From Streptomyces sp. NBC_01754 (GTDB lineage Bacteria; Actinomycetota; Actinomycetes; Streptomycetales; Streptomycetaceae), in the NCBI RefSeq assembly GCF_035918015.1, contig NZ_CP109132.1:4216001-4280000 (forward strand): 64,000 nucleotides of DNA. Reading direction: 5' to 3'. This document shows, piece by piece, positions 4,515 to 33,415 of the stretch. Within the stretch, counting starts at the first letter, position 1, and every line of letters starts with the position of its first letter. The position numbers and the translations under genes were made by a program. The notes beneath the pieces are model-generated. The model ran no database searches. It was not told the origin of the DNA and saw only the letters and a program-made list of their open reading frames with translations.

Positions 4515-4559
4515 GCGTGAGGGCGGCCACCGGAACCCATCCGATGGCCGCCCTCACGC
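4515..4559. terminator. Bidirectional terminator hairpin
   Basis: A perfect 15-bp inverted repeat (GCGTGAGGGCGGCCA and its complement) with a 15-nt loop sits between the + strand DoxX gene and the - strand nucleotidyltransferase. Its symmetry and convergent setting fit a two-way terminator. Confidence 0.75.
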
Positions 4560-4765
4560 ATGCCCGGGTCCACGCTCCACGTGCACGGCCCACGCCCACG
4601 CGCTGGGGCCTCATACCGTACGAGCCCATGTCCCGAGGCCCTGTGCCCTGTGTCCCGAGGCCCCGTGTCCCGAGGTTCTACGTCACGTGCGGCCAGGAGC
4701 CCCGAGAGCCTGATGCCTGCGGGCGCTTGCCCTGCGGCTACGTGATCTCCGAGGCGGGGGCCCTC

Positions 4766-5500: not shown

Positions 5501-5539
5501 GATATGCCGTGCCCGGGGACCACCCGGCGGGGTGGCCGC

Positions 5540-5986: not shown

Positions 5987-6408
5987 GGCGACATTCCGTC
6001 ACTCTTGCGGGGGATGGTTCGACGCGTCCTTTCGAATTACCGGTTGACGCGAGGGCCTGAATGGCGCGGTATGCCAGGGATTGAGGCACCCGCGACGACG
6101 AAACCCGAAAGCGCCCGCGCCACGCGAACGGGTCCGCCGTTCACGGACCGGGGCGCCGCCCCTCGGCGACACACGCCCTGACGGGCTCTTCGCCCGCCCT
6201 GCTGACGGCAGTGCCCCTCGGGCGGCCTGCCGGGCTTCCCGGCAGGGCCGACGACGCCGCCCCCGGGCACCCCGGACGTGAACGGCCCCCGCGACCCGGA
6301 CGAGCCGAGTGCGGGGGCCGGTCATGTGGCTGCGCGGTGACAGCCGACACCAGGTGATGCCGGCCGGTACGAGCGTGTACCCGCCCGCACCTCCCCACAT
6401 CTGTCTGT
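5987..6408. other. Non-coding gap with GC-rich hairpins
   Basis: I see no credible gene here. Two stem-loops stand out: CCTGCCGGG-CTT-CCCGGCAGG at 6226-6246 and a 10-bp stem, CGGCCCCCGC / GCGGGGGCCG, at 6283-6320. Both may be transcription-termination or RNA-end structures between two - strand genes. Confidence 0.5.
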
Positions 6409-6428
6409 GCCTGCCGGTACCGGCAGGC
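6409..6428 (-). terminator. Terminator of msiK
   Basis: A perfect 20-bp palindrome (two 9-bp GC-rich arms around TA) begins 12 nt beyond the msiK stop on the - strand, where a factor-independent terminator would be expected. Confidence 0.65.
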
Positions 6429-6439
6429 GTCTGCCGGTG

Positions 6440-7576
<1,137 letters not shown>

Positions 7577-7753: not shown

Positions 7754-7827
7754 GCCTCCTTAGCTCAGATGGCCAGAGCAACGCACTTGTAATGCGTAGG
7801 TCGTCGGTTCGAATCCGACAGGGGGCT
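7754..7827 (+). tRNA. tRNA-Thr (anticodon TGT)
   Basis: A full cloverleaf is visible: acceptor GCCTCCT pairs with AGGGGGC, the D-arm is GCTC/GAGC, the anticodon stem ACGCA/TGCGT encloses loop CTTGTAA (anticodon TGT), and the T-arm is TCGGTTCGAATCCGA. The discriminator is T and no CCA is encoded. The 3' half from 7786 onward is duplicated at 38360, so this gene is the integration site of the element to its right and stays intact after insertion. Confidence 0.97.
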
Positions 7828-7914
7828 CGGTGAAACCCCAGGTCACATAACCCGTGACCTGGGGTTTCTGTTGTTCCGGGGCTGGTGTGCCGGATGGCCG
7901 GGGCGCGGCGGGAG
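7786..7914 (+). repeat. attL direct repeat (129 bp)
   Basis: Identical, base for base by eye, to 38360-38488. It starts inside the anticodon loop of tRNA-Thr and runs through the tRNA 3' end and the following terminator. At 129 bp it is longer than a usual att core, so the element probably carries chromosomal DNA beyond the crossover. Confidence 0.9.
7833..7867 (+). terminator. tRNA-Thr terminator
   Basis: A 14-bp perfect stem (AAACCCCAGGTCAC / GTGACCTGGGGTTT) with a 7-nt loop follows the tRNA immediately and is succeeded by a T-rich stretch. The same hairpin recurs in the right att copy. Confidence 0.8.
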
Positions 7915-7918
7915 TGCC

Positions 7919-7939
7919 TGCGTGAGCGGTGCGTGAGCG
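7919..7939 (+). repeat. Paired putative integrase arm sites, left end
   Basis: TGCGTGAGCG occurs twice, starting at 7919 and 7930 (11-bp pitch), just inside the left att copy. The same pair with the same pitch occurs at 38222 and 38233 near the right end. Placement at both ends and a helical-turn spacing suggest integrase or excisionase binding. Confidence 0.55.
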
Positions 7940-7956: not shown

Positions 7957-9266
7957 CTACTTCATCGGCTTCCGGCGCTTGGCCTTCACGGTCTCCTTGG
8001 GCTGGGCTTTCGCCTTGTTGCCCGGCTTGCCGCCCCTGGTCCTGCCGGCGTTCTTGGCCGCAGCCTTTTTGGCCTTCTCCTTCTTCGCGGCCTTGAGCGC
8101 GGCCTTCTCGGCCTCGGCCTTGCGCTGTAGGGGGACGAGCTTCGCGGTAGCCTCGGCGGCGCTCCTGCCGACGTGAGGCAGGACGCTCTGGTAGATGTCC
8201 CGTGTGATCCGGGTGTCGCTGTGGCCGAGGTGTCCGACACGATCTTGATGTCGATGCCGGCGGCGAGCATGAGCGTCGCCGCGCCGTGGCGTAGGTCGCG
8301 GAAGGCGATGAGGTGCCACATCGCGTACAGCCGGTCTTCGGCGACGAAGTCGAGGAAGGCGCCGGTCTGCTGGGGTGTCCAGACCATGACGGGCGACGGC
8401 TTCTCGCCCGTCTGCTCACACTTGGTGACCCGTTCGTCGGTCCACACGAGCGCCTTCGGTTTGCGTACGGGGTCGATCTCGACGTGGGCGGCGGGGTTGA
8501 AGGTGATGATCTGCTGCCCGATCGCGTCGTTCAGCGATGCCCGGAGGGTGGCCTTGACGTGCTGGCGCGTGGCGGGTCCGGTGATGCGGCGGAAGGGCGG
8601 CATCTTGTCGATGGCGGCCTGCATCGCCTTGCGCCGGGCTCGGTTCTCCACGCCCTTCCATGGCACGGTCGCCATCTCGTCGATCGCGGCTCGGCGCTGG
8701 GCGTTGTCCCCCAGAATCTGGGCGTTGGCGTCGCGGATGTCCGTGAACATCTCACTGAGGTGGCTGACGCGCAGCCGGTCCAGACGTCGGCCGCCGATGT
8801 GCGGCTTCAGGTGGACGCGGATGTCGGTCTCGTAGCGGTTCAGGCCGGACTTGCGTATGCGCTTGCCGGCCAACCACCGGTCGAGCCACTCGGCGACGGT
8901 CAGGCTACCGATGAGATCCTGGCCGGCGTTGAGCCGCCGCCTCGTCTCCTCGACCTCGGGCAGAGGTGACCGTTCGCGGCTGACCTCGGCCAGCATCTCG
9001 GCGATGAGGCCGGTGCCCTCGGGGTCGTCCGAGTCGGCGAGTCCGAGGAGGGCGCGTACGTGGTCGAGGTCGGCCTGGGCCGCCTTGAGGTTGCTGTACC
9101 CGCCATGGGCGAAGGAGCGTCGGCTGCCGTCCTCGCGGGATGGCAGCTCCTGGCGGATGGAGTAGGTGCAGTGGTTCCTGCTGTTGCGCTTGGGGCAGGA
9201 GGTGCCGAGTTCCTTGCCAGTCTTGGGGTCGCGGCAGGAGCAGCGGCGGTAGGTGGAGCCCTTCAA
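7957..9266 (-). pseudogene. int: Tyrosine site-specific integrase, doubly damaged
   Basis: Relic of the element's tyrosine recombinase. The N-terminal cysteine motif (RRCSCRDPKTG), SAM-like DNA-binding region and part of the catalytic domain are present, reading from a TTG (9266) that overlaps the upstream stop and follows GAGGAG. Two lesions are visible. The text LIAFRDLRHGAATL fuses the first catalytic-Arg box (normally like AFRGLRRGE) to the H-x-x-R box, so roughly 100 residues between them are missing (junction near 8291-8305). A base is also lost near 8228-8232: the C-terminal part LGHSDTRITRDIYQSV, with the catalytic Tyr, is in another frame. A basic Lys/Ala tail follows. It is unlikely to be active. 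Confidence 0.85.
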
Positions 9267-9964
9267 AGATCGTTCTCCTCGGTGGTGTCGGGGTCGATGC
9301 CGGGTGAGTTGATTACGGCGGCCACGTCGGGCCACAGGAACGGGGGTGTGACGCCCTCTTCCTCGATGAAGGCGCGAACTCTGCGCAGGCGGCTTGCGGC
9401 GCCATCGGCCGCTTCGGCGGCACGGGCCTGGGAGCGGAGGGCCTCGGCCTTGCGGTCGGCATTCGGCGCGGTCTGGGCGTGGTAGCGGGCGTACTCCTCG
9501 TCGCGTCGTGCGCTTCGCAGTCGCTCCTGGGCGGCGTGGTGGGCCCGGAAGTAACGGAGCATGTCGTCGTCCGCGCCGAGTTCGGTCTCTTCCCCGGTGA
9601 ACCAGCGCAGCGCGTCCAGGGGGGAGGTGGAGTCCTGGAGCGGAAGCCGCTGCACGTCGTCGGCGTAGCCGACGGGATAGATGAGGCAGATAGGAGGGGT
9701 GTTCAGCGCCTGAGCCAGGACCATGACATCGACCAAGGGCAGGTTGGAGCGGCGCCTGGACTCCATGTTGGCGATGACGTTGCGGGGGATCGGGTGGCCC
9801 ATCTCCTCGCACTTGTCGGCCAAGTCCTGTGCGCTCCAACCCAGTTCCCTCCGTCGTCTGCGGACCTCTGCGGCCACGGTGGCCATGACCTGGTCCACCC
9901 ACTCCAGGACGTCGTCCTCGTCGTCGGCCTTCTTGGATCTATGGTCGCTGCGGCGTTGTGTCAT
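9263..9964 (-). CDS. XRE-family DNA-binding protein of the element
   Basis: A 233-residue putative regulator. A Cro/C1-type helix-turn-helix lies at about residues 30-90 (RELGWSAQDLADKCEE, then NVIANMESRRRSNLPLVDVMVLAQALN). The C-terminal half is helical with many Arg/Ala/Glu residues and no recognised domain. It is immediately upstream of the integrase; its TGA overlaps the integrase TTG, so the two would be translationally coupled. Such genes often control integration or replication in Streptomyces elements (inference). No clear ribosome-binding site precedes the ATG. Confidence 0.8.
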   Translation of the reverse strand: MTQRRSDHRSKKADDEDDVLEWVDQVMATVAAEVRRRRRELGWSAQDLADKCEEMGHPIPRNVIANMESRRRSNLPLVDVMVLAQALNTPPICLIYPVGYADDVQRLPLQDSTSPLDALRWFTGEETELGADDDMLRYFRAHHAAQERLRSARRDEEYARYHAQTAPNADRKAEALRSQARAAEAADGAASRLRRVRAFIEEEGVTPPFLWPDVAAVINSPGIDPDTTEENDL

Positions 9965-15941: not shown

Positions 15942-16313
15942 TCACTCCCGACGGAACATGCCGCCCCGCGCGCGATGCTTTCCAACGCGGCGTCCCTCAG
16001 GCTGCTCGGCCGCAGAAGCCGTGCTCACAGGTGGCGGGCGAGTCGGTTCGTCGTGAAGGAGGAGAGACTGCCAGACCTGCTCCTGCAAGACGCGGATGCA
16101 CGGGCCGCAGGCGAACATCGCCGCCTGGGCACCCGCCACACTCACTGGGCCGATCCATAGAACACGGGTCCATCGTTGGCCGCAGTAGAGCCAGCAGAAG
16201 CCGTCAGTCCACGTATTGCCGTCGTCAGTGTCTGCTGCGGTCGGCAGACCGCCGCGGGCGAACTCGGCGATGCCGGGTATGACCCGAGGTGTCACGGCCA
16301 GTTCTATCAACAC
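15942..16313 (-). CDS. Small cysteine-containing conserved hypothetical protein
   Basis: A 123-residue protein of unknown function. Two cysteine pairs (GFCWLYCG near residue 39 and FACGPCIRVL near residue 68) suggest a small zinc or Fe-S knuckle. An aromatic-rich core (WTDGFCWLYCGQRWTRVLW) lies between, and the Arg-rich tail looks disordered. GTG 16313 has GGGGA about 8 nt upstream. It is 16 nt downstream of the CYTH gene and so is the last gene of the radical SAM operon. Confidence 0.6.
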   Translation of the reverse strand: MLIELAVTPRVIPGIAEFARGGLPTAADTDDGNTWTDGFCWLYCGQRWTRVLWIGPVSVAGAQAAMFACGPCIRVLQEQVWQSLLLHDEPTRPPPVSTASAAEQPEGRRVGKHRARGGMFRRE

Positions 16314-16329
16314 AGATCGGTCCCCAAGA

Positions 16330-16917
16330 TCACTCGCTCGGGACAGCTGCCTTGGCCGAAGCCTGCTTGTCGGCGTCGGCGAAGAGGAGCGTGGGCTCGG
16401 CCAGGATGTCCCTGCCGGCCTCGCTCTTGTAGATCTCGTCGACGCTGCCGAATCGTGCCTCGGTGTAGTCGAGGTCGAGCATGGCGGCTGCCTGGCGGAC
16501 CGATGCCTCGTCGGGTCCTTCGATCTCGACGAAGGTGGGGAGGTCCGGCCAGGTGTCGAAGTCGAAGGCGACTTCGCCCAGGCGCCACTCCTCGCGGTAG
16601 TTCTCCTGGTAGCGGACTTCGCGCAGGCCGACGTTGCGGAGGATCTCGGCCATGGCGTGCAGGTCGGACACCTCGGTCTCGATCTCGGTGGTGCCGTCGA
16701 TCGTCGTGGAGTCGGTGACCTGCTTGAGCGTGAGCGTGGAGCGGGTGGCCTCGTCCCTCAGGCGGACCCAGGCGCCGCCTTCGAGGGCGTCGTTCTCGAA
16801 GATCTTCCGGGTGAGGAGGGTGCGCGGAAATGCCTGGGCGGCTCCGAGCGCGATCAGTTTGGCCTGGAGGCCGTCGACATCGATGGCGAGGAACTTGGCC
16901 TCGTACTCGTGCTTCAT
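16330..16917 (-). CDS. CYTH-domain protein (triphosphatase/class IV cyclase-like)
   Basis: A 195-residue CYTH-fold protein. The N-terminal ExExK-type signature (HEYEAKFL) and alternating charged strands (TRKIFENDALEGGAWVRLRD, LTLKQV, EIETEV, VAFDFDTWPDLPTFVEIEG) line the tunnel that binds triphosphate substrates. Known members are inorganic triphosphatase, thiamine-triphosphatase and CyaB-type adenylate cyclase; the specific reaction cannot be assigned. AAGGAC precedes the ATG closely. It lies 21 nt downstream of the methyltransferase in the same operon. Confidence 0.82.
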   Translation of the reverse strand: MKHEYEAKFLAIDVDGLQAKLIALGAAQAFPRTLLTRKIFENDALEGGAWVRLRDEATRSTLTLKQVTDSTTIDGTTEIETEVSDLHAMAEILRNVGLREVRYQENYREEWRLGEVAFDFDTWPDLPTFVEIEGPDEASVRQAAAMLDLDYTEARFGSVDEIYKSEAGRDILAEPTLLFADADKQASAKAAVPSE

Positions 16918-16938
16918 AGGTCCTTCTTTCCCGTAACT

Positions 16939-17592
16939 CTAGGAGGGGTTGGACGCACGGGCGGCGAGAAGGAGGCCCATGCGGTGGTTGTGGTCCTGCA
17001 GCTGTCCGACGTGCGCCTGCTCGGTGAACTCGTTGGTCCGCAGGGTGAGCAGGACGTCCCAGTCCCCGATGAAGTAACGCCGCAGCTTCTCGGGGGATGT
17101 GTAGTGCTCCAGCACGTGGTGGCGTTGCGTGAGGGGCATCATGAACTCCGCGCCGAACAGACCGCCGGGCCGGACCAGGCGCTGCATGCGGTCGACGAAC
17201 TCGCCCAACGGCCGGTGGTGGTTGGCACTGTAATGCCACGAGCAGCTCGTCCAGACGGCATCACAGGGGGCGGTGACGGATTCGGAGGCGAGGAAGTCCT
17301 TCTCCACGACCTGGACACGGTCGTGAAGCCCTTCCTGCTTCAGCCGCTCGATCATGCCCGTCGCGTGACCGGTTCTGTCACCCGGGAGTTGGACCTCGCC
17401 GCCGTGGAGGGCGAGCGGGTCGCGCTCGATGGCGATGACGCGGTAGCCGGCCGCGGCCAGTGGCACGACGAGTCTGCCGTCGCTCGCGCCGATGACCGTC
17501 ACCGTGGAGTCAGGCTCCGTACGCTCCTTCAGCGCGGCGAGGAACTGAGGGAAGAAGGTGAGGGTGTGCCGCCACATGCTGGGTGTCTGCAC
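16939..17592 (-). CDS. Class I SAM-dependent methyltransferase
   Basis: A 217-residue Rossmann-fold methyltransferase: motif I VTVIGASDGRLVVPLAAAG (about residue 30), motif II VIAIERD, a downstream acidic residue in VVEKDF, and the RLVRPGGLFGAEF post-I region. The acceptor is unknown. GTG 17592 is preceded by AAGGAGAG; the first 83 nt overlap the P-loop gene upstream, suggesting tight translational coupling. Confidence 0.82.
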   Translation of the reverse strand: MQTPSMWRHTLTFFPQFLAALKERTEPDSTVTVIGASDGRLVVPLAAAGYRVIAIERDPLALHGGEVQLPGDRTGHATGMIERLKQEGLHDRVQVVEKDFLASESVTAPCDAVWTSCSWHYSANHHRPLGEFVDRMQRLVRPGGLFGAEFMMPLTQRHHVLEHYTSPEKLRRYFIGDWDVLLTLRTNEFTEQAHVGQLQDHNHRMGLLLAARASNPS

Positions 17593-18151
17593 TGGCTCGC
17601 TCTCCTTGCGGGTGGGTGCTCAGGACGGCTCGGAGTACCTCGTCGGGAGTGAGGCCGGTGGTGTCCACGCGGTGCATCGGGAACGAGGCGTAGGCGTCGG
17701 TGATCTTCTCGGCGGTGATCTCGGCGAGGGTGTCCCAACGCGAGACAGGCTTGTCGCGCCGGGCGAGTCGGCGCCGGCGCTCCTCCTCCGCGCAGACGAG
17801 GTAGTGGGTGACGGGACGCGGGATGCCCGGCGGCAGGGACACGGAGAGGTTGGCTCCGAAAGCGCGATGGTTGGCCAGACAGCGTGCGAAGTAGCTTTCG
17901 ACGACGACCGGGATGCCGGCGGACAGGTACCGCTGGATCTGATCGGTGGCGGTGAACAGGGCCGAGAGGTAGAAGCACATGCGGGCCTCTGCATTTCCCA
18001 GCCGGTCGACCTCCTGCCGCAGTGCCTGGTAGGCGGGCGGCACGGTCGGGACCATTACCGCGCCACGGGCGGCCGCGAGCACGGGGGCGAGGGTGGATTT
18101 GCCGGTGCCGCGGAGCCCTTCGACGCTCTCGAACGATGCCGGGTCAGACAC
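17510..18151 (-). CDS. P-loop NTPase, nucleotide/deoxynucleotide-kinase-like
   Basis: A 213-residue P-loop protein. Walker A EGLRGTGKSTLAP occurs at the N-terminus. Later segments recall thymidylate or nucleoside kinases: VVVESYFARCLANHR resembles the DR(Y/F) base-recognition region, and EEERRRRLARRD resembles the Arg-rich lid. It is likely a small-molecule or nucleotide kinase; the substrate is unknown. The GTG start overlaps the radical SAM stop by 8 nt, and the 3' end overlaps the methyltransferase. Confidence 0.72.
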   Translation of the reverse strand: MSDPASFESVEGLRGTGKSTLAPVLAAARGAVMVPTVPPAYQALRQEVDRLGNAEARMCFYLSALFTATDQIQRYLSAGIPVVVESYFARCLANHRAFGANLSVSLPPGIPRPVTHYLVCAEEERRRRLARRDKPVSRWDTLAEITAEKITDAYASFPMHRVDTTGLTPDEVLRAVLSTHPQGERASADTQHVAAHPHLLPSVPRRAEGAYGA

Positions 18152-19046
18152 GTCCGTACACCACGTCCGGCACCGCGAGGGTGAGCTCGTCAGTGGGGGA
18201 GGGCCGGTGATCGATGTGGTCGGCCAGCTTGTCGTACCAGAACGCGTGCGAGTCCTTACCGACAGCCTTGCAGGACATCGTGAGCGCGCCACGGGGGTCG
18301 GCCTCGATCCGTTCGATCTCGACTGGGCCCCCATTGGGAACGCAGGCATCCGGGGCGCCGGCCTCGGACAGGTCCTCGTCGACGATCACCTCGATCTCCA
18401 GGCCGGCCACATCCAACCAGCGGCGAAGGCAGGTGTAGGCCGTGGGGTCGGTGATCAGGAGCTCGGGATGATCGGCCGCATTGCCAACCGGCCGGAGACA
18501 GTGCAGTTTCAGCTGCTCCACGCCGTAGCCCTGGAGTACCCGAGCGAGCGGCAGCACCTCTTCGATGTTGCGTGAGGTGACCGTCATGGTGGCTCCGGTG
18601 CGGACACCGAGTCGCTGGGCGATTTCGAGGGCGCTCAACGCGCTGCGGTAGCTTCCGAACTTGCGGATGTGGTCGTTGGTCGAGCCGATGCCCTCCAGCG
18701 ATACCCGGAGCAGGTCCAGGTCGGGGCCGATCTCGGTCAGCCGGCGCTCGATCCGGTAGCCATTGGTACAGATCTCGACCCGCAGCCCAAGATCCCGCTT
18801 GGCGTACCGGACGACCTGAGTGAGGTCCCGGTAGACGAACGGTTCGCCGCCCAGCAGGGTGACAGCCTCGGTGCCGTACTGGTCGCGCATGAGGGTGAGG
18901 AGATTGATCGCCTCGTCCGCGGTGAAGGCGTCGGCGTGCTGGAGCCGCTTGCCGTGGAAGCAGTGCAGGCATTCGAAGTTGCAGCGGTACAGCAGCTGCA
19001 GGTACAGCATCCGGATTCTGCGGATCCCGGTGACTTCGCTGATCAC
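18144..19046 (-). CDS. Radical SAM enzyme heading the element's cluster
   Basis: About 300 residues, with a CxxxCxxC [4Fe-4S] motif (RCNFECLHCFHGKR), a GGEP SAM-binding motif (VTLLGGEPFVYRD), VEICTNGY and RVSLEG, i.e. a complete radical SAM barrel. Two further cysteines near the C-terminus (DACVPNG, MSCKAVG) do not make a full SPASM set. CFHGK is reminiscent of viperin's CFH, but SGGEP and other viperin features are absent. I prefer GTG 19046 (GGAG 6 nt upstream) to the upstream start at 19115. First gene of a five-gene operon; substrate unknown. Confidence 0.82.
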   Translation of the reverse strand: MISEVTGIRRIRMLYLQLLYRCNFECLHCFHGKRLQHADAFTADEAINLLTLMRDQYGTEAVTLLGGEPFVYRDLTQVVRYAKRDLGLRVEICTNGYRIERRLTEIGPDLDLLRVSLEGIGSTNDHIRKFGSYRSALSALEIAQRLGVRTGATMTVTSRNIEEVLPLARVLQGYGVEQLKLHCLRPVGNAADHPELLITDPTAYTCLRRWLDVAGLEIEVIVDEDLSEAGAPDACVPNGGPVEIERIEADPRGALTMSCKAVGKDSHAFWYDKLADHIDHRPSPTDELTLAVPDVVYGRV

Positions 19047-19136
19047 GAGGGTCTCCTTCGGGCGTTTGCCTGGTGGGAGACCTGATATTGGCGGGACAGG
19101 TACGGACTCCGTCACCGCGTATCGGGACGCTCCAAA

Positions 19137-19152
19137 GACGTCCTGGGACGTT
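19137..19152 (-). promoter_or_regulatory. Putative operator of the radical SAM operon
   Basis: AACGTCCCAGGACGTC (read on the - strand) lies between the HAD stop and the radical SAM start. It matches AACGTCCCGGAACGTC at 19891 in 14 of 16 positions, and a further GCGTCCC half-site follows. Its position in two promoters of one cluster suggests control by the neighbouring XRE protein. Confidence 0.5.
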
Positions 19153-19153
19153 T

Positions 19154-19846
19154 TCAGGACGCCGCGAACGTCTCCAGGATCCCGAGCACGCGAGCGGTGT
19201 CCACGAGATTCGGTAGCACCCTTTGAGCACCGGCAGCGGCCAGTTCCTCGGCGCTGTGAACGCCGGAGGCGACGGCGATGATCTCGGAGCCCGTAGCGAT
19301 TGCGGCCTCGACGTCTCTGGGCGTATCGCCCACGAGCACGACGGGCACGTCGGCCTGCGCACCTCGCAGCCGCTGAGCACGCTCACGGGCGACAGCAACT
19401 AGGTCCGGCCGCTGGAGAGCGTCAGCACCATAGGCGCCAACTCGCAGATCGAGCAGGGAGTCAAGGCCGAAGGCTGACACCTTCACCCGGGCGTTGGCCG
19501 CGATATTTCCGGTGAGCACCGAGGACACCCAGGTACTGCGTACGGAGGCTTCCTTCAAGATCTCACGCACGCCAGGCAAGGCTGTTCCGCGTCGGCTGAG
19601 CTCGGCCAGACGCGCGGCACCTGCGGCCGTGAGGGCCTCCTCGACAGCAGCCCAGTCCGGCTCAGACACACCGTTTCGGTGGAACATGTCGCACATGATC
19701 AGGCGATCCGTACGACCTTCCGTCCGCGCCGGCCCCATAGGCTCTCTCCCCGACAGCGCTGTGAAGGCAGCGGCGTAGATCTCCTTGCTGACCCCGGCAT
19801 TCTCGATCAGCGTGTGGTCGATGTCCCACAGGACGATGAGCTCCAT
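19154..19846 (-). CDS. HAD-superfamily phosphatase
   Basis: A 230-residue haloacid-dehalogenase-like hydrolase. Motif I is LWDIDHTLI (nucleophile and acid Asp), motif II VLTGN, the Lys region is replaced by RPDLVAVAR, and motif IV is VLVGDTPRDVEAA. A helical cap lies between motifs I and II, as in phosphoglycolate-phosphatase-like enzymes. The ATG is placed at 19846 from the motif position. It is divergent from the XRE gene and upstream of the radical SAM operon on the same strand. Substrate not predictable. Confidence 0.85.
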   Translation of the reverse strand: MELIVLWDIDHTLIENAGVSKEIYAAAFTALSGREPMGPARTEGRTDRLIMCDMFHRNGVSEPDWAAVEEALTAAGAARLAELSRRGTALPGVREILKEASVRSTWVSSVLTGNIAANARVKVSAFGLDSLLDLRVGAYGADALQRPDLVAVARERAQRLRGAQADVPVVLVGDTPRDVEAAIATGSEIIAVASGVHSAEELAAAGAQRVLPNLVDTARVLGILETFAAS

Positions 19847-19881
19847 ACGCCCAGCGTAAGCACCCTGGTCGTGCTGTCGAT

Positions 19882-19907
19882 GTCCCGCAGAACGTCCCGG
19901 AACGTCC
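19882..19907. promoter_or_regulatory. Putative operator between the HAD and XRE genes
   Basis: Three ACGTCC-type half-sites occur in tandem (GTCCC, then AACGTCCCGG, then AACGTCC) in the 88-bp divergent promoter. The core is shared with the site upstream of the radical SAM operon. Autoregulation by the adjacent helix-turn-helix protein is a reasonable inference. Confidence 0.5.
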
Positions 19908-19934
19908 TTGCCGCTCCCGGCCCCTTCAGCTTGT

Positions 19935-20717
19935 ATGGCGCCTGTGAACGAGCGACTGCACTCCGTACTCGCCCAGCGCGGCATCCCACCCGAATCCCTC
20001 GCCGAAGTCTGCGAGGTGGACCCCAAGACGGTGAGCCGATGGCTCGGCGGACGTGTTCCCCACGCCCGCCACCGCTTCCGCGTCGCCCGGCACCTGCGGG
20101 TGGAGGAATTGTTCCTCTGGCCGGTACCGGCACGCGGTGCTCAACAGCAGTCCGCCGGGTCAGAGCAGGAGCTGGTCACGACCTACCAGAACCGTGCGAG
20201 CGTCCCACGGGACACGTGGCTGTCGCTGCTCAAGGGCGCCCAGGAGCAGATCAGCGTCCTCGTCTTCTCCGGTACCTTCTTCGCCCAGTCCAACCCCCAC
20301 GTCGCCAAGATGCTCGCCGAGCGTGCGTCGGACGGGGTGCGAGTGCGGCTCTGCTTCGGCGACTCGAACGGCCAGGCAGCAGCCATCCGGGGCCGGGAGG
20401 AGGGCATCGGCGACACCCTCGCCGCCAAGATCCGCGCCTCCCTCACCTACTACCGGCCCTTACTCTCCGAGGCAGGCTGCGAGGTAAGACTGCACGACAC
20501 CACGCTCTACACCTCCATGTTCCGCTACGACAACAACCTCCTGGCCAACCCACACGTCTGGGGCCAACCGGCCAGCGCCAACCCCATCCTGCATCTCCGC
20601 AGAGCTGACACCACGGGCTGGTTCGACAACTACGCTCAGAGTTTCGAAGCTGTCTGGGCCACCGCACGGCCCTGGGCACCGGACCGGGAGGGGCCCTCGT
20701 CACATGGGCAGGACTGA
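19935..20717 (+). CDS. Helix-turn-helix regulator with DUF5919-like C-terminal domain
   Basis: A 260-residue protein. The N-terminal XRE-type DNA-binding domain (residues 1-65) includes LAEVCEVDPKTVSRWLGGRV. The C-terminal domain (80-250) looks like a phospholipase-D-fold, DUF5919-type module, with conserved-looking VRVRLCFGDSNG and LHDTTLYTSMFRYDNNLL, and may sense a ligand. The ATG at 19935 has no ribosome-binding site, so the mRNA may be leaderless. It overlaps the NUDIX gene by 14 nt and probably controls the divergent HAD and radical SAM units. Confidence 0.75.
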   Translation: MAPVNERLHSVLAQRGIPPESLAEVCEVDPKTVSRWLGGRVPHARHRFRVARHLRVEELFLWPVPARGAQQQSAGSEQELVTTYQNRASVPRDTWLSLLKGAQEQISVLVFSGTFFAQSNPHVAKMLAERASDGVRVRLCFGDSNGQAAAIRGREEGIGDTLAAKIRASLTYYRPLLSEAGCEVRLHDTTLYTSMFRYDNNLLANPHVWGQPASANPILHLRRADTTGWFDNYAQSFEAVWATARPWAPDREGPSSHGQD

Positions 20718-21171
20718 GTACTACAACGACCCCAAGGCCCCCAAGGCGAATACGCTCATCCCCGCCAACAATCTCCTCGTCGTCGACGAAAACGGCGCCA
20801 TACTGCTCCAGCGCCGCCGGGACACAGGCCAGTGGGCCCTGCCGGGCGGCGCCCAGGACATCGGCGAGACGGCGGCCGAGTGCGCAGTGCGCGAATGCCT
20901 GGAGGAGACCGGAATCATCGCCGAGGTCACGGGATTCTTGGGGGTCTACACGAACCCGAACCACATCGTGGCCTACACGGACGGCGAGATCCGCCAGCAG
21001 TACGAGAACACCTACATCGGCCGCCCCGTGGGCGGCGAGCCCACGATCAACGACGAAGCCGACGGCGTCCGCTACGTCCAGCCCAACAACTTGGACGACT
21101 ACGACATCCACCCCAGCATGCGCCAGCAGATCGGCGACTACCTCGCCGGCACATACCCTTACCTGGGCTGA
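20704..21171 (+). CDS. NUDIX hydrolase
   Basis: A 155-residue pyrophosphohydrolase. The Nudix box begins at GGAQDIGETAAECA and ends RECLEETGI (near residues 48-71), with all catalytic Glu residues present (RExxEE). It should cleave a nucleoside diphosphate linked to another group; the substrate is unknown. It is co-transcribed with the XRE/DUF5919 gene (14-nt overlap) and its 3' end overlaps the convergent HD gene by 13 nt. Confidence 0.9.
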   Translation: MGRTEYYNDPKAPKANTLIPANNLLVVDENGAILLQRRRDTGQWALPGGAQDIGETAAECAVRECLEETGIIAEVTGFLGVYTNPNHIVAYTDGEIRQQYENTYIGRPVGGEPTINDEADGVRYVQPNNLDDYDIHPSMRQQIGDYLAGTYPYLG

Positions 21172-21722
21172 GCCGCCAACGCCGCCTCCACTCGCCCCAC
21201 CGCCTCAAGGATGTCCGGCTTCGCCTGACGGATGAACCGCCCCACCAGGCTGCCCGTGCCGTAGCGAACGACGATCTCCGCCAGCCGGGCCTTCGCAGAG
21301 GTGACCTCGCCATCGGGTGTGGTCGTCATGTCACAGTAGATGAGCCCATCTACAAGAAGCTGGTCGTCCAACAGCGGAAACTCCGCCTCCAACATGTCCC
21401 GCAACCCCCGCTCCTCAGCCTCCAACAATGCCATCGAGTGGTTCGCCACCAACCGAACCAGCCGCTCATCCGCAGCATGGATGTCGCGAAGGAACCGGGC
21501 ACCATCCAGCGGATGGAAGCCGGTCGCGGCCAGTCGCGGAGCGTAACCGATATCGTGTAGGACCGCCGCAGAGCTCAGCAGCTGCGCATCGTCGCCCAGG
21601 ATCCTGGCCACTTCGACCGCGCGCTGCGCGACCCCTTGGGAGTGCGCCCACCGACGAGGAAGCGGTCCACACAACTCTGCCTCGGCCACTGCGCACGCCC
21701 ACTTCGCCATTGCTTCGCTCAT
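21159..21722 (-). CDS. HD-domain phosphohydrolase
   Basis: A 187-residue HD-domain protein: His in RRWAHSQGVA, the HD doublet in AAVLHDIGYAP and a later VANHSMALL His form the usual metal site. HD proteins hydrolyse nucleotides, cyclic nucleotides or other phosphoesters. The start at ATG 21722 is chosen from domain position (MSEAMAKW). It is convergent with, and slightly overlaps, the NUDIX gene. It completes a set of five phosphate-handling enzymes around the radical SAM protein. Confidence 0.8.
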   Translation of the reverse strand: MSEAMAKWACAVAEAELCGPLPRRWAHSQGVAQRAVEVARILGDDAQLLSSAAVLHDIGYAPRLAATGFHPLDGARFLRDIHAADERLVRLVANHSMALLEAEERGLRDMLEAEFPLLDDQLLVDGLIYCDMTTTPDGEVTSAKARLAEIVVRYGTGSLVGRFIRQAKPDILEAVGRVEAALAAQPR

Positions 21723-21868: not shown

Positions 21869-22651
21869 TCACTGGGACACTGCACCGGTACGTGGTGAGG
21901 GTGCTGGGACAACCGGGCCGACCAAGTCGAGCCATGCTGCGAGCGCCTCGGCCAAGTCATCGCCGAGTGCAGCCGCCGCATAGGGGAGTGACCCGGTCGT
22001 CTCCAGGAACCGCAACACGTCCGCGAAGGGGTCGTGGCAAAGCGCTAGTGCAATCTCCTCTGCGCGATGATGGTCGCCTACGCGGAAGTTCTGGTGCCAG
22101 GCGACCAGCAAGGTCTGGCATTTGATGTATGCCGACCTTCGGCCCATCACTAGTTCGGGCCTATCGTTAAGTCCGAAAACTTGGATTGACACCCTCCCCT
22201 TAAGTGAGGGATCGCCCGAGGGTGTGACTGGGCGATATTTACCTGTTACTGGTTCCAGGCGTATATGATCAGCTGGGTCGTCCATGCTTGGATTGATTAG
22301 TAGGCACTGTCCGAACGTGTCGCATGGGTACGCGTCGCGTTTCAGGTTGCTATTGCAGTGCGAGCATGCAAGTAAATGGTTGTGCCAGCAAAATGTACGC
22401 AAGGGGAAATGGGCCTTAGGGGCGAAATGATCGATGTCCGTACCCCGGCTATCCAGGCAGTACATGCAGCGCAGTACCCCCGGCGCCATCTGCTCCAGGA
22501 GGCTTCGGATCTCTTCCTTAGCGGCAGTGGCCAGCTTCCACTGCTCTGCGGCGGCTTCTCCGGTGGCTCTGCCTTCGATGACCTTCTGTGTTCGAAAAGC
22601 GGTGAGTCTCAGTAGGCGTTCCGTTGCTGCAGGGCGCTGAAGAGGAATCAC
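21869..22651 (-). CDS. ptuB: HNH endonuclease of a Septu-like defence pair (PtuB-like)
   Basis: A 260-residue HNH nuclease. The core is RCMYCLDSRGTDIDHFAPK, then WHNHLLACSHCNSNLKRDA: a zinc-binding CxxC...CxxC pair around the catalytic IDH. This layout matches retron/Septu-associated HNH proteins (TIGR02646-type). Its ATG overlaps the ATPase stop by 4 nt. In Septu, PtuA ATPase and PtuB HNH act together against phage. Here the nuclease frame is intact but its partner is disrupted. Third-position GC looks lower than in the flanking chromosome. Confidence 0.7.
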   Translation of the reverse strand: MIPLQRPAATERLLRLTAFRTQKVIEGRATGEAAAEQWKLATAAKEEIRSLLEQMAPGVLRCMYCLDSRGTDIDHFAPKAHFPLRTFCWHNHLLACSHCNSNLKRDAYPCDTFGQCLLINPSMDDPADHIRLEPVTGKYRPVTPSGDPSLKGRVSIQVFGLNDRPELVMGRRSAYIKCQTLLVAWHQNFRVGDHHRAEEIALALCHDPFADVLRFLETTGSLPYAAAALGDDLAEALAAWLDLVGPVVPAPSPRTGAVSQ

Positions 22652-23752
22652 CCGTCGTATCCCAATCGAGCGGCTACTTCGTCCACGCGGGCGGAACGAG
22701 AACTACTCAGGCGTGTCGTGCGTTCGCGATATTCGCGGGCCTCTGCTTCGGTGGCCTGGCCTGCGAAGACCTTACGCTCCAGTGGCACCAACTCTCGCCT
22801 TTCCTGTTCAGCGCGATCGGAGTATGGGGTTTCTAGGCCGAATAGTTTGGAGAGCGCCACGTCCTCGCCGCTCCCGTATACGATGCGTCGGTATAGGGAG
22901 TCGTCCACAACCTCGGGTCCACATTGCTCATCTGGTCCCGGTAGGCGGATTAGACCACCAGGATCTGCGGCTTGGCAGATATACGGACTGTGGCTAGTCA
23001 CGATGAACTGGATTAGCGGAAAATGGGCGCGAAGCCAGCTACCGATCTGCCGTTGCCAAGTGACATGGAGATGGGCATCCACCTCGTCGATGATCACAAT
23101 GCCGGGCATTCGGATAACCGGTTTCCCCGCATCATTCGTGCCCGCGTTCAGTGTTCCGTAAGAGTTCTGCAGTTGCCTCACCATATCCAAAACTAGCGAG
23201 GCGACCGTTCTGAACCCGTCGCTCATTTCCCTTAGCGGGTACGCGCGTTCGGGCTGACCGGGTGGGGCCACCCACAACCCCTCAGAACTTACTCGCATCG
23301 CTATATAGCCATCGGGCAACAAGCCGTCCGAGAGTAGCGCCTGCACAGTTTTCAATAGCGCAGATGCCTGCTCTTGCCCCTCCAAAGCTCTCAGGTGCAG
23401 CTCCTTGAGCCAGTTCACCCCTTCGGCGAGCGACGCGTCTTCGTGGAAGAGGGAGGCCATGCGCCCCGCCGGGCCAGGCGCAAGCATCATCCGTTGAGCT
23501 TCACCTGAGCCACCAGCCATGCGTCGAAAGGGGCCGTAAGCTGCGCAGAACCAGCCCTGCGGGTTGTCAGCCCAAGGACCGCGGGCGGCCCCTGCCCAGC
23601 CTGTTTTCTTGTCGTAGGGGGACAGGTGAGGCTATCGCGACATGCCGAAGGCGTTATGCCCAGCTGATGCAGCCTCTGGAGCTGTCCAGTCCAGTCCCAG
23701 CAAGAGGGGGCCACCAGGTGCTCTTCCGCTTGCGGTGAGCCTGTCGACTGAG
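22648..23752 (-). pseudogene. ptuA: Septu-like ATPase (PtuA-like), C-terminal fragment
   Basis: The largest piece of an ABC/OLD-type ATPase. It holds the signature-like REMSDGFRTVASLVLD, Walker B GIVIIDEVDAHLH and the switch His in FIVTSHSPYI. The fragment continues upstream (GPWADNPQGWFC, then GPFRR) across an in-frame TAG at 23634-23632 to the 1704-bp IS. Rejoined with the pieces at 25457-25557 and 26905-27083 it gives one 457-codon frame, still broken by that TAG. A polypeptide could restart at ATG 23520 but would lack the P-loop. Confidence 0.75.
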
Positions 23753-23897
23753 TGCGTTGTGGCAAACCGGATCTCGTTCGAAGCCTGCGGTGCGGGTGAT
23801 CATTCGGACAGAGATGCCGGTGCGGTCGTGGGCATGAAGAAACGGGCCCCTTGGTAGTGACGTGGTTGTTGAGGCCGGTCACGAGCAAGGAGACCCG

Positions 23898-24854
23898 TTG
23901 TCGGACGAGTTGACCATCTCTGCGGTGCCTGCGTCCACCGCGGTCACCCTTGGGTGTGACTGCTACGTGCACAGGTTCGGTTCGATCGCTCCGGGACGGC
24001 GGGCCGGCTGCTATCCCAGTGACATGACGGACGCGGAGTGGGCCGAGGTCCGCTCCGTCATGCCGGTGCCGGCCTGGCTCCTCAAGCAGGGCGGCCGCCC
24101 CGAGGCGTACTGCCACCGCGAGATGCTCGACGCTGTGCGCTACCTGGTCGACAACGGCGTGAAGTGGATGGCCCTGCCGGTCGACTTCCCGCACTGGCGG
24201 GCCGTCTACGACTTCTTCCGCCGCTGGCGGTCCTACGACTACGTGCGTGAGCTGTACGAACGCCTGCGACGCTCGGCGAGGGAACGCACCGGCCGCAACG
24301 CCGAGCCCAGTGGCGGGATCATCGACAGTCAGTCGGTGGACGCCTCCGAAACCGTCGGCGAGGACAGTCGCGGATACGACGGCGGCAAGTCACGTGACGG
24401 GCGCAAACGTCACATCCTGACCGACGCCGAGGGCCTGCTCCTGGAGGTGACCGTGACCACGGCCGATGTGCACGACTCCAAAGCCGCCCCGGCGCTGTTG
24501 GAAGCATTCATGGCCGAGCCGGGCCGGCTGCTGAAACTGGTGTGGGTCGACAGCGCTTACCAGGGTCCGGCGCTGGCGAAGGCGTTCGCCCGCCACGGGG
24601 TGCGGATCGAGGTCGTGCGCCGCTCCGACGGGCAACGCGGATTTGTCGTACTGGCCCGCAGGTGGGTGGTGGAGCGCACGCTGAGCTGGCTCTCCCGCTC
24701 ACGCCGCCTCAACCGCGACCACGAACGCCGCCCCGACCACCACGCCCAGATGGTGTGGTGGGCAGCCATCATCAGGCTGTCCCGGCGCCTGGCCGGAGAC
24801 GCTCCGCGCTGGCCGGAGAAGCGTCCCGGGCGACTGCTCCCGGCGTCGGCGTGA
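23898..24854 (+). CDS. IS5-family DDE transposase (copy 1)
   Basis: A 318-residue transposase with N-terminal DUF4096-like helix-turn-helix (MTDAEWAEVRSVMPVPAW) and DDE domain: first Asp in IIDSQSVD, second in VWVDSAYQG, Glu in RRWVVERTLSWL. TTG 23898 is preceded by AAGGAG; the frame is open further upstream. It appears intact and single-frame. Its 3' end overlaps the convergent passenger gene by 83 nt. Confidence 0.9.
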   Translation: MSDELTISAVPASTAVTLGCDCYVHRFGSIAPGRRAGCYPSDMTDAEWAEVRSVMPVPAWLLKQGGRPEAYCHREMLDAVRYLVDNGVKWMALPVDFPHWRAVYDFFRRWRSYDYVRELYERLRRSARERTGRNAEPSGGIIDSQSVDASETVGEDSRGYDGGKSRDGRKRHILTDAEGLLLEVTVTTADVHDSKAAPALLEAFMAEPGRLLKLVWVDSAYQGPALAKAFARHGVRIEVVRRSDGQRGFVVLARRWVVERTLSWLSRSRRLNRDHERRPDHHAQMVWWAAIIRLSRRLAGDAPRWPEKRPGRLLPASA

Positions 24855-29721: not shown

Positions 29722-31257
29722 CAATGCCGTTCGGTTAGGGGTTCGTTCGGCGGTGCAACTCTCGGCGTTTCGGCTGGTGATACGGGTGCAGCCCTTGTAG
29801 TGGTTCTCGGGTCCGCCAAGACTCGTGTTCCTCTGCAAGGGCTGCAGTGTCTGATTCTGTCATTACGCATGCTCCCGGTGTGTTTGCCGTGGGGCACCTG
29901 GGCGAGTTGACCCAGGTCGTTCCGTTCGATCTTGTCGACGAGGCACTCGCGTCCGCGGGTGGTCTGCAGCATCGGGTGCGGCGGCTGCCGTCGCGGGTGG
30001 TGGTCTACCTCCTGCTCGCAGGCGCGCTGTTCACCGGGACGGGCTGGACGGGAATCTGGTCCCGGCTGAACGCCTCGCTGCCTGTGCCGCTGCCTGTACC
30101 GGCGCCTTCATCGATCACGGCTGCGATGCGGCGGGTCGGCCCCAGACCGTTGAAAGCACTGTTCGATCTGGTCAAAGGCCCCGCAGCGGTGACCGCGACA
30201 CAGGTGACACGGTTCGCGGGCAGGCTGGTGGTCGCGATCGATGGCACCCAGATCGCGCTGCCGGACACGCCCGCGAACCTGTCGGTGTTCCCCAAGGCGA
30301 AGGCCGGACCGAACGGCCCGGCTGGTTACCCGATGCTGCGTCTGGTCACGCTGACGGCCTGCGGGACCCGAACCCTCATGGACGCCGTCTTCGGCACCGA
30401 CGTGACCGGCGAGCTGACCTACGCCCGTGACCTGGTCACAGGCGCGGGCACGACCAGAGCACTCCGGCGCGGGATGCTGCTGCTGGGTGACCGAAACTTC
30501 TCAGCCACCAGGTTCGTGGACACGGTCGCATCCACGGGCGCGGACTTCCTTATCCGGGCCAAGACCCACAGCACAGCGCTCAAGCTGCCGATCCTGCGCC
30601 GTCTGCCCGACGGCACGTTCCTGTCCCGCATAGGTGAAGTCCCCGTCCGTGTCATTGAGGCCACCCTCACCCTCACCCCTGCCGACAGCACCAGCAAGCA
30701 CACTGCCACCCAACACGCCTACCGGCTGGTCACCAGCCTGCTCGACCCCGACGAAGCACCCGCCACCGCTCTGGTCAGGCTCTACCGAGAGCGCTGGGAG
30801 ATCGAGACCAGCTACTGCGAGCTGAAATCGGCCCTCCTCGGCGGCAGAGTCCTGCGCGGCCGCCACCCGGCGGCCGTCACCCAGGAGACCTGGGCACTTC
30901 TGGTCGCCTACCAGGCACTACGCACCGCGATGAGCGACGCCGTCCTGCACCGGCCCGACATCGACCCCGACCGCGCCGCATTCACCATCGCGCTGAACAC
31001 AGCACGTGACCAGATCATCCGGGCCGCCGGCATCATCCACACCCAGACCGACCTCGTCGGACAGATCGGCACCGCCATACTCAACGGCCTCCTACCCGCC
31101 CGCCGAGACCGGTCCCGACCCCGCGTGAAGAAACGAGCGATCAGCTCCAAGTACCGCGCCGTCGGCCGCAACACCGACCACCGAACCCACAGAACCGCCG
31201 TCCATATCGAGATCAACGCATTGCCAAACCCGCCAGACGGCTAACCGAACGGCATTG
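29722..31257 (+). mobile_element. IS4-family element, 1536 bp, in hsdR
   Basis: Perfect inverted ends CAATGCCGTTCGGTTAG at each side, and a perfect 10-bp target duplication CGACTAGGCC (29712-29721, 31258-31267). It carries one transposase frame spanning most of its length. Duplication length and transposase motifs fit the IS4 family. Confidence 0.9.
29847..31244 (+). CDS. IS4-family transposase
   Basis: A 465-residue DDE transposase with an N-terminal domain (VVYLLLAGALFTGTGW), first Asp in RLVVAIDGTQIALP, second in LLLGDRNFSATRF, and the IS4 signature YRERWEIETSYCELK carrying the catalytic Glu. It appears intact; the frame ends within the right inverted repeat. Confidence 0.92.
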   Translation: MSDSVITHAPGVFAVGHLGELTQVVPFDLVDEALASAGGLQHRVRRLPSRVVVYLLLAGALFTGTGWTGIWSRLNASLPVPLPVPAPSSITAAMRRVGPRPLKALFDLVKGPAAVTATQVTRFAGRLVVAIDGTQIALPDTPANLSVFPKAKAGPNGPAGYPMLRLVTLTACGTRTLMDAVFGTDVTGELTYARDLVTGAGTTRALRRGMLLLGDRNFSATRFVDTVASTGADFLIRAKTHSTALKLPILRRLPDGTFLSRIGEVPVRVIEATLTLTPADSTSKHTATQHAYRLVTSLLDPDEAPATALVRLYRERWEIETSYCELKSALLGGRVLRGRHPAAVTQETWALLVAYQALRTAMSDAVLHRPDIDPDRAAFTIALNTARDQIIRAAGIIHTQTDLVGQIGTAILNGLLPARRDRSRPRVKKRAISSKYRAVGRNTDHRTHRTAVHIEINALPNPPDG

Positions 31258-33415
31258 CGACTAGGCCCGACGGCTTCTCGCCCCAGGTCCGATTGACGCG
31301 GGCAACGGCCTGCATTAGGGCGGCACCGCGCATCCGGCGGTCGAGGTAGAGGGTATGCAGCGGGGGTGAGTCGAAGCCGGTCAGCCACAGTGACTGGACG
31401 ATGACGAGCTCGAGTTCGTCGTTAGGGTCGGCGGCTCGCGCCTGAATGGCCTTGAGCTTCTCGGGTGAACGGACATAGGGAGCAATCTCTGCGTCGTCCC
31501 TTCCGGGATTGCCCGTGTATACGACCCGGACCTTTCCGGTGGCGTCTGGAAGCAGGCCGGTCTTCTGGTCAGGCTCGCCGACCCAGTCGGGACGGCGGGT
31601 GGCGAGGGCGTTGAAGAGCCGGGCCGCGATCCTGCGCGAGGAACAGACGACCATCCCCTTACCGGGGCTGCCCGTCAGCTTGGCCATCTCTATGCTGCGG
31701 CTATCCCAGTGGGACAGAAGGGTGTCAGCAAGCGTCCCTATGCGCTCGCGCGCACCGATCACACTCTCGAATGTGGCGAACTGGGCTCGAACGCGGCTCT
31801 GTTCAGCCTCGCTCAGCCCCTCGACGAGCCCCTCGGCCTGAGCATCCATCTCATCCAGGTCCTTGTCATCCGGGAGCTTCACCTTGTGGAGGATCGGCTC
31901 GTAGAAGACACGGACGGTTGCCCCGTCGTTGACCGCCTGGGTGTGGTCGTAGGTGTGGATCGTCGGCCCGAAGATGGCGAGGGTGCTGCCCGTTCGGTTG
32001 TCGATTGGGGTACCGGTGAAGGCGATGAAGGTGGCGCTGGGGAGCGCGTCTCGCAGATGGCGAGCGAAGCCGTCCTCGAAGTCGTAGTGGCTACGGTGCG
32101 CCTCGTCGACGATGACGATGACGTCTCGGCGGTTAGAGAGCAGCGGATGCCGAGTGCCCGCAGCTTTCTCCGCCTTGCTGATCCGGAACTTGTGGAGAGT
32201 GGTGAAGATAACACCGCCGCTGCCCTCGCGCCGGGTGAGGAGATCCTTCAGCTGGTCGCTGTTATGAGCCTTTTCCGGCAGGCCGCCGATCGCTCGATGA
32301 AGGCTGTGGCTCGCGTTGAACGTGTTGAAGAGCTGGGTGTCGAGGTCGATACGGTCGGTGATGAGAACGACTGTCGGGCGGGGTAGCCCAGGGAGACCAC
32401 CTGCTTTGCCGGTGTAGAAGAGCATCTCCTCGCTCTTGCCTGCACCCTGTGTATGCCAGATGACACCCGCTTTCCCGTCTGCAGTGGCGGCGGACACGGT
32501 GGCGGCGAGGGCCGTTTCGACGGCGATGTACTGGTGTGCCTTGGCGAGCTTGACCGTGTCCACACTGCCGCCGGTGCCTTCGGCGGAGTAGGAGAGGAAG
32601 CCAGCGACCAGGCCGAGGAGGTGGTTAGGTTCGAGTGCTCCGGCGATCATCCGTTCCAGGGCACGCCCGTCCTCTCGTTCTTCCTTCTTCTTGAGTAGGA
32701 CTCCATCCTCGGCGTGCCAGGGCGCCATGTGCTCCCACGGCGTGAAAGGGGTGCCGAGGCGGGCGGTTACCCCGTCGGTGGCGACAGCGAGAAACAAGCT
32801 ATGGAAGGTGCCGTCAGCCTTCAACTCACGTCGGTAGTTCTGGATCTGCTCGTATGCAGCGCGGGAATCGTCCGGCCCGCTGGCCTTCTTCAGTTCGACG
32901 ACGCAGAGCGGCAGGCCATTGACGTACAGGATGATGTCGAAGATGAACGCTCGCTCGCTGGCCGCGCGTATCCGTACCTGTGAGGAGGCGACGAGATCGT
33001 TGCCGTGCGGATCGGCGAAGTCGACGGGCCGGACGGTGACGCTGTGCTTCTTGTCGGTGAGCGAGTCCGTGTAGCTGACCTTCAGGCCGCCCGTGAGCTT
33101 CTTGTAGAAGTCCCAGTTCTTACGGACGTCGCTGCCAGGTGTCTGCCGCAGCAGTTCGGTGATCGCCTCCTCCACGGCATGGGAGGGCAGCTGAGGGTGA
33201 CGAGTCGCGATGGCGGAACGCAGCCGGGGGTACAGGACGAGGTCACCCCAGTCTTTACGGTGACCGCTGTTTGGGTTGAGGTCCTTGCCGGGAAAGTGCT
33301 GCCAGCCGAACTCGGCGAGCTGATCGAGCGCGAGCGCCTCCCAATCTCGCTCAGAGAACCCGCCGAAGGACCTCTCCTCGGACTCCCCTGCCCCGGCAGC
33401 ACTTTCTTCGCTCAC
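31258..33415 (-). pseudogene. hsdR: Type I restriction HsdR, N-terminal fragment (nuclease and helicase)
   Basis: About 718 codons. The PD-(D/E)xK nuclease region (LPLCVVELKKASGPDD) and helicase motifs VIWHTQGAGKSEEM (Walker A), VIVDEAHRSHYD (DEAH) and AFTGTP are intact. The coding sequence stops after TWGEKPSG when the IS4-type element adds a few foreign codons and a TAG. ATG 33415 overlaps the hsdS stop by 4 nt. With both ISs removed hsdR is 1081 codons, normal for the family; as it stands, restriction should be lost. Confidence 0.88.

Follow-up and report, generated by a model that had tools for sequence, protein, structure and literature searches.

Gene content and layout of the cassette

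The analyzed DNA, referred to here as the window, is a 64,000-nucleotide stretch of Streptomyces sp. NBC_01754 (GCF_035918015.1, contig NZ_CP109132.1, positions 4,216,001-4,280,000 of the forward strand). It contains a compact cassette at 15942-21722 in which a radical SAM enzyme, a P-loop kinase and a methyltransferase are accompanied by an XRE-type regulator and four phosphohydrolase-type enzymes. The features are as follows, with expectation values of family matches in brackets:

15942-16313, minus strand: gene A, small Cys-rich protein, optional and non-core
16330-16917, minus strand: gene B, CYTH/triphosphate-tunnel enzyme, 195 amino acids (PF01928, 8.5e-10)
16939-17592, minus strand: gene C, class I SAM methyltransferase, 217 amino acids (Methyltransf_25, Methyltransf_11)
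17510-18151, minus strand: gene D, P-loop kinase with predicted thymidylate kinase fold, 213 amino acids
18144-19115, minus strand: gene E, radical SAM enzyme, 323 amino acids (PF04055, 1.1e-19)
19154-19846, minus strand: gene F, HAD hydrolase with DIDHT motif (PF12710, 5.4e-10)
19847-19943: divergent promoter region between F and G, candidate XRE operator, with tandem ACGTCC boxes at 19892-19897 and 19902-19907
19944-20717, plus strand: gene G, XRE-type helix-turn-helix (HTH) regulator with a DUF5919/PLD-like C-terminal domain (both below cut-off)
20704-21171, plus strand: gene H, NUDIX hydrolase, 155 amino acids (PF00293, 2.5e-19)
21159-21722, minus strand: gene I, HD-domain phosphohydrolase, 187 amino acids (PF01966, 6.5e-9)

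A preliminary description of this DNA had named these genes and their families. All of the genes are open, and profile matches agree with the expected families except for the small Cys-rich protein; the four phosphate hydrolases (HAD, CYTH, NUDIX and HD) are likewise present. Starts were revised to about 18151 for the kinase, 19846 for HAD and 21722 for HD, and the start of G, a GTG codon at 19944, was placed from its relatives. The overlap of the genes was also correctly described, amounting by coordinates to 8 base pairs (bp) between E and D, 83 bp between D and C, 14 bp between G and H, and 13 bp between H and I.

Distribution and conservation

The radical SAM gene was detected in 36 of 392 genomes of the genus, 29 of 391 of the order and 4 of 296 of the class, at expectation limits of 1e-40, 1e-30 and 1e-25, respectively, the genome under study being included in the counts. 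A contig scan with this gene yielded 71 named loci (identified by L numbers), in which the presence of a gene was scored at 60% coverage. The loci were found through the radical SAM gene, which is consequently present by construction, and the result lies in the presence of the other genes. Seven or all of the eight core genes occur in 57 of the 71 loci, and order and strands are kept in all 57. This confirms that the eight core genes are inherited together and do not stand in a row by chance. Independently scattered homologues, named in the preliminary description as the outcome that would contradict it, were not what this co-occurrence analysis returned, as the genes travel together.

All nine genes are found in 34 loci, while 16 lack only A, four lack A and HAD, and three lack only HD. 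The radical SAM enzyme, kinase, methyltransferase and CYTH genes occur together in 62 of the 71 loci, the methyltransferase itself also being present in 62. The radical SAM gene stands alone in three loci, no gene reaches 60% coverage in three, and the remainder are partial. The 57 near-complete loci span genera of Streptomycetaceae, Sphaerimonospora and Nocardia. Gene A, present in 37 of the 71 loci, is not counted as core for this reason and because its relatives (35-43% identity) recur in other islands, beside JmjC and aldo-keto reductase genes.

The identity of the radical SAM protein to that of the window ranges from 64 to 95% over 59 loci. Median identities, from 54-59 loci each, are highest for NUDIX (92.3%, 59 loci), followed by CYTH (85.9%), XRE (79.1%), the radical SAM enzyme (76.8%), HAD (75.4%), the methyltransferase (73.5%), HD (71.1%) and the kinase (66.2%). 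The slow change of the NUDIX protein suggests that its substrate is fixed and specific. With 75% identity, the copy in Sphaerimonospora resembles the window more closely than does the copy in Streptomyces albireticuli (65%), which suggests that the cassette moved horizontally. The cassette can also be lost, since stop codons interrupt some copies and others are split. Among plasmids, no record covers 80% of the cassette DNA (nine are partial), and no radical SAM match reaches 60% identity, with weaker matches in 160 records.

The divergent region between F and G contains ACGTCC-N4-ACGTCC at 19892-19907. Among the 49 radical SAM loci in which the start of G could be placed, a tandem ACGTCC-N3-5-ACGTCC occurs upstream of G in 27, compared with 0.01 expected, and a single ACGTCC in 44, compared with 3.0 expected, from shuffles that ignore kinship. 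The tandem begins 52-54 bp from the start of G, in 18 of the 27 loci at exactly 53 bp. It is also present in three of ten loci that carry the HAD-XRE-NUDIX-HD module without the radical SAM operon. G may bind the ACGTCC boxes.

Core proteins

The cluster motif of the radical SAM enzyme E (C45-x3-C49-x2-C52, CxxxCxxC) is common to many radical SAM families and is present in 28 of 28 aligned sequences. Five cysteine columns are invariant in this alignment, so that only C116 and C282 are added to the motif; C258 is found in 21 and C206 in 15 sequences. SPASM proteins have seven extra auxiliary-cluster cysteines in the C-terminal domain, and this set was not found in the 28 sequences. Consequently, assignment as a SPASM-type maturase of ribosomally synthesized and post-translationally modified peptides was rejected. 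The median F-E gap of 38 bp and the E-D overlap leave small room for a precursor peptide gene, no search being aimed at peptides. The predicted structure has a model confidence (predicted local distance difference test, pLDDT) of 84.1. The solved sequence closest to the radical SAM profile is BlsE, followed by SkfB and the viperins.

Kinase D matches AAA_33 (2.2e-4) and Thymidylate_kin (0.0074), both below cut-off, and misses the gathering score of PF02223 with 16.4 against 27 bits. Its predicted structure has the thymidylate kinase fold, the 50 best rows of the model search all being thymidylate kinases. A structural comparison with viperin and nucleotide kinases had been proposed in the preliminary description. 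The radical SAM enzyme misses the viperin family score, and its model resembles SkfB and BlsE at least as closely as viperin. The nucleotide-type chemistry proposed there is what the kinase fold and the radical SAM profile point towards.

Methyltransferase C has a GASDGR motif and matches PF13649 at 1.8e-5, with 25.8 bits below the cut-off of 27, and PF08241 (Methyltransf_11) at 1.1e-4, above its own cut-off. CYTH enzyme B, with an intact EYEAK motif, passes the PF01928 cut-off (39.2 against 23.2 bits) and remains below that of the class IV adenylate cyclase CyaB (TIGR00318, 37.8 against 57.95 bits); its nearest solved sequence is the triphosphate tunnel metalloenzyme Saci_0718 (4.1e-7). HAD protein F matches the PhnX-like model TIGR03351 at 8.4e-11, yet below cut-off. 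For G, the DUF5919 match (3.7e-4) scores 20.8 bits against a cut-off of 23.5, and PLDc_2 matches at 0.015. The NUDIX protein H, the most conserved protein of the cassette, has an intact Nudix box in 60 of 60 sequences, and the HD motif of I is intact in 55 of 56. No family match was obtained for A in the profile-library scans.

A module found with different operons

The preliminary description had regarded the nine genes as one unit. This view has to be narrowed: besides gene A being optional, HAD-XRE-NUDIX-HD is also found with another operon or without radical SAM genes, and HD-NUDIX-XRE is a module already described. Ghinet et al. 2011 (PMC3218068) report an HD-NUDIX-XRE (mdp-nud-xre) cluster that Sco5349, pMEA100, pSE211 and four Frankia elements have in common, and conjugal immunity conferred by Pif, the NUDIX protein of pSAM2. 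The likeness lies in the arrangement, as HD, NUDIX and XRE genes are adjacent on a mobile element here too. In contrast to mdp-nud-xre, the cassette adds HAD and a divergent operon centered on the radical SAM enzyme, and its NUDIX protein belongs to a highly conserved lineage of its own. An 18-kb Streptomyces plasmid (L162) with integrase and FtsK genes carries only the XRE-NUDIX-HD part, arranged in the same way.

NUDIX relatives (expectation values up to 1e-30) are found in 248 of the 392 genomes. At 20 chosen places with a close NUDIX gene (75-92% identity) in genomes without a radical SAM match, HAD (at least 56% identity) lies beside NUDIX in ten, with a weak HAD match in two more. In five loci (L140, L142, L143, L144 and L147), HAD is followed by a different gene, read as a radical SAM gene from its cysteine motif and without a Pfam match. 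The operon of these five loci contains enolase-family, OmdA-like (below cut-off) and HAD genes, with a full phosphoketolase in four; in L140 it occupies 1018-7162, behind the HAD-XRE-NUDIX-HD module. Its putative radical SAM gene occurs in 14 of 256 genomes; in five of the 14 loci, those at 74-100% identity, it is adjoined by HAD and XRE. The other nine have no adjoining HAD and XRE within 1.5 kb, and the wider stretches of seven show no F-I. Larger versions of this operon without the module (L191, L192) carry ABC exporter and NUDIX genes.

A NUDIX tree was built of 81 rows (83 collapsed), rows with fewer than 120 aligned residues being left out. L105, whose contig ends in the kinase, and L120, a broken copy, were labeled as having no operon type. 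The operon types cluster on the tree, which needs 11 changes where shuffles need 22.2. A group of eight holds all five rows of the phosphoketolase type; the complete radical SAM-kinase type falls within a group of 69, along with 12 rows without that operon, which may represent losses or decay. Support of the two groups is 96/75 and 83/79, neither starred, and the bootstrap is unsettled. The NUDIX proteins of the two plasmids stand well apart on long branches. Because operon types cluster on the tree and the module is found with another operon, the simplest picture is a sensor-hydrolase half combined with an exchangeable synthetic half.

Comparison with known systems

BlsE, the cytosylglucuronate decarboxylase of the blasticidin S pathway (PDB 7vob), is the closest solved relative by profile, yet the cassette enzyme misses the cut-off of TIGR04466 (55.8 against 400 bits). 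Membership of the prokaryotic viperins, which make a 3'-deoxy-3',4'-didehydro nucleotide from a nucleoside triphosphate, was rejected, as NF038283 scores 56.1 against 180 bits and 15 other radical SAM families score higher. To our knowledge, no other gene of the cassette is a known blasticidin gene, and the further cassette genes are not part of viperin loci.

The tubercidin cluster tub (PMC6112128), a small nucleoside cluster, similarly has a Nudix hydrolase alongside its radical SAM enzyme. In tub, the deazapurine nucleoside is built by GTP cyclohydrolase, CPH4 synthase and a phosphoribosylpyrophosphate transferase, whereas no such deazapurine-building family is among the cassette matches. 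Kinase D resembles the PADLOC candidate PDC-M51, matching PDC-M51B at 7e-21. This defence candidate was rejected: the M51B model is unspecific, since it matches in 13 of 14 control genomes, and no PDC-M51A match lies near the cassette, the two weak matches each being more than 2 Mb away. PDLC04691 proved to be another family.

Proposed mechanism and alternative explanations

The most economical reading of the enzymes is nucleotide-type chemistry. The interpretation favored here, held with about even confidence, is that the cassette encodes, on mobile DNA, a pathway that regulates itself and yields a modified small molecule of nucleotide type. In such a pathway, a substrate resembling a nucleotide would be phosphorylated by the kinase, altered in its sugar or side chain by the single-cluster radical SAM enzyme, in the manner of BlsE and viperin, and tailored by the methyltransferase. 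CYTH and HAD would trim triphosphate and monophosphate, while NUDIX and HD would destroy the product or by-products and thereby keep the host from being poisoned. The XRE/DUF5919 protein on the ACGTCC boxes would repress both divergent operons until released by a ligand or stress. An intracellular role, in immunity against phages or rival elements or in signaling, appears slightly more likely than a secreted antibiotic, because the core is without an exporter or a scaffold-building enzyme and is located on mobile elements.

A more specific version is put forward tentatively: a mobile immunity or signaling pathway of a new class, in which the XRE/DUF5919 sensor derepresses a modified-nucleotide operon and a dedicated, slowly evolving NUDIX, with HD and HAD, clears the product. 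The modified nucleotide would be made by the kinase, the radical SAM enzyme, the methyltransferase and the CYTH enzyme. The sensor-hydrolase half, which also stands with at least one other operon (second putative radical SAM enzyme, phosphoketolase and enolase-family enzyme), would then serve as a general chassis for mobile pathways of nucleotides or phosphorylated metabolites.

Several observations weigh against the nucleotide pathway. HAD-XRE-NUDIX-HD occurs without the radical SAM operon elsewhere, so its hydrolases need not act on the pathway product. HAD is absent from all five Nocardia loci, and L105, which bears the radical SAM gene, falls in the phosphoketolase-type group of eight. The loci are related to one another, and their counts are not independent. 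Among solved sequences, the kinase profile matches a putative adenylate kinase and several shikimate kinases best, followed by thymidylate kinase, and Foldseek on the kinase model returns thymidylate and shikimate kinases mixed. By fold, SkfB ranks first and BlsE second for the radical SAM model, and the near tie of peptide maturases, BlsE and viperin leaves the substrate class unfixed. Finally, exporter, NUDIX, JmjC and aldo-keto reductase genes come after the cassette relative in L112, and JmjC and reductase genes are found at four further loci; a secreted product fits these better.

A compact biosynthetic cluster for a secreted nucleoside-type natural product, with the phosphohydrolases providing self-resistance, is a rather unlikely alternative. 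Besides L112, it is favored by L115, with a pyridoxal phosphate (PLP) decarboxylase, by the rank of BlsE in profile and fold, and by the other operon with a phosphoketolase that follows the same four-gene module. It is opposed by the missed BlsE cut-off, by the lack of an exporter and a scaffold-building enzyme in the core, and by the JmjC-reductase trio being mostly independent of the module. A viperin-like antiviral system, in which the radical SAM enzyme makes a chain-terminating nucleotide from a kinase-supplied nucleoside triphosphate and the hydrolases protect the host, is unlikely. Its family score is far below the viperin cut-off, SkfB and BlsE match better by profile and at least as well by fold, and viral contigs gave no kinase relative and only weak radical SAM matches, with no convincing phage-borne copy. 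A defence scan of locus neighbors covered 134 of 214 candidate proteins (148 after a 500-amino-acid cut and a number limit); since its tallies have no control for the frequency of defence genes near such loci, no defence-island enrichment is claimed.

Element maintenance, with XRE-NUDIX-HD as a Pif-like conjugal-immunity module and the radical SAM operon as an effector arm blocking redundant transfer, draws on the integrative-element clusters and Pif reported in PMC3218068 and on the solitary XRE-NUDIX-HD of plasmid L162. It is improbable, however: the cassette NUDIX is distant on the tree from those of this and another plasmid, NUDIX relatives are far more widespread than the radical SAM gene (248 against 36 of 392 genomes), and relaxase relatives were matched in just 23 of the 71 loci, with three short matches among them and with some loci truncated at contig ends. 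Enzymes acting on RNA ends belong to the CYTH, kinase and methyltransferase families, which counts for an RNA or tRNA modification or repair set made up of the kinase, triphosphatase, methyltransferase and radical SAM enzyme. Such a set is highly improbable, with neither RNA ligases nor RNA-binding families represented in the cassette profile matches and only thymidylate kinases in the 50 best rows of the kinase model.

Distant relatives and accessory genes

The radical SAM enzyme, kinase, methyltransferase and CYTH enzyme are kept in distant relatives in Nocardiopsis, Planosporangium and Actinocrinis; in Nocardiopsis, a gene for a PLP decarboxylase separates the kinase gene from the radical SAM gene. 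In Catenulispora (by Pfam) and Actinocrinis (read from the sequence), a second CYTH gene forms a pair with a divergent HTH regulator. A conserved cluster around a 36-38% relative of the radical SAM enzyme is shared by Nonomuraea basaltis and Streptomyces sp. FH025 (L124 5229-13488 and L121), with epimerase, thymidylate-synthase-like, carbamoyltransferase, methyltransferase, APH and Nudix-box proteins; it looks like nucleoside or nucleotide-sugar chemistry. On Kitasatospora plasmid L129 (6390-7457), cyaB, annotated as a class IV adenylate cyclase, directly precedes NUDIX, with HAD nearby and polyketide genes beside.

A trio of JmjC_2, aldo/keto reductase and a 296-amino-acid protein (L112 15691-17651, L177-L189) recurs on Streptomyces islands, often adjoining a 35-43% relative of protein A. 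It accompanies the cassette or module in seven loci (L072, L073, L074, L098, L112, L134 and L136). As JmjC relatives occur in 32 of 256 genomes and F-I at none of the 13 sites examined (of 33 places), the trio was rejected as part of the system and is mostly separate cargo.

The mobile element and its other genes

The cassette lies, as the preliminary description had placed it, on a mobile element beside two defence systems and contains no insertion in the window sequence. The element is bounded by 147-bp direct repeats, 98% identical, at 7783-7929 and 38357-38503, the left of which overlaps tRNA-Thr (7754-7828) and extends past it. It carries relaxase and MobC genes. In the integrase frame (7986-9902) only an N-terminal SAM-like domain is recognized (3.8e-4, below cut-off), and the integrase may be damaged. 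PtuB (5.4e-80) lies beside a truncated PtuA ATPase (model positions 161-444 of 446) at 21869-23520 as a Septu-like pair, PtuA ending short of an IS4/5-family transposase gene (23862-24854). Approximately 9.5 kb beyond this pair are type I restriction R and S genes (31241-37981). This system looks broken by insertion, since only the first part of the methylase remains (37700-37981), next to another copy of that transposase gene (36645-37637).

Significance

Nothing on the combination of radical SAM, CYTH and NUDIX in Streptomyces, or on DUF5919, was found in the open-licence literature, and the cassette is not described in the available portions of PMC11706625, PMC3218068, PMC9513070, PMC6112128, PMC13118837 and PMC10853773. 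Its radical SAM gene is present in about one in eleven sampled Streptomyces genomes. If the product is an intracellular modified nucleotide, the cassette would represent a further radical SAM route to nucleotide-based immunity or signaling besides viperin. If the product is secreted, it would be an overlooked nucleoside-type compound encoded on mobile DNA. Either way, the cassette provides a concrete hypothesis for the role of the HD-NUDIX-XRE module, which has been described from actinomycete elements but lacks an explanation.

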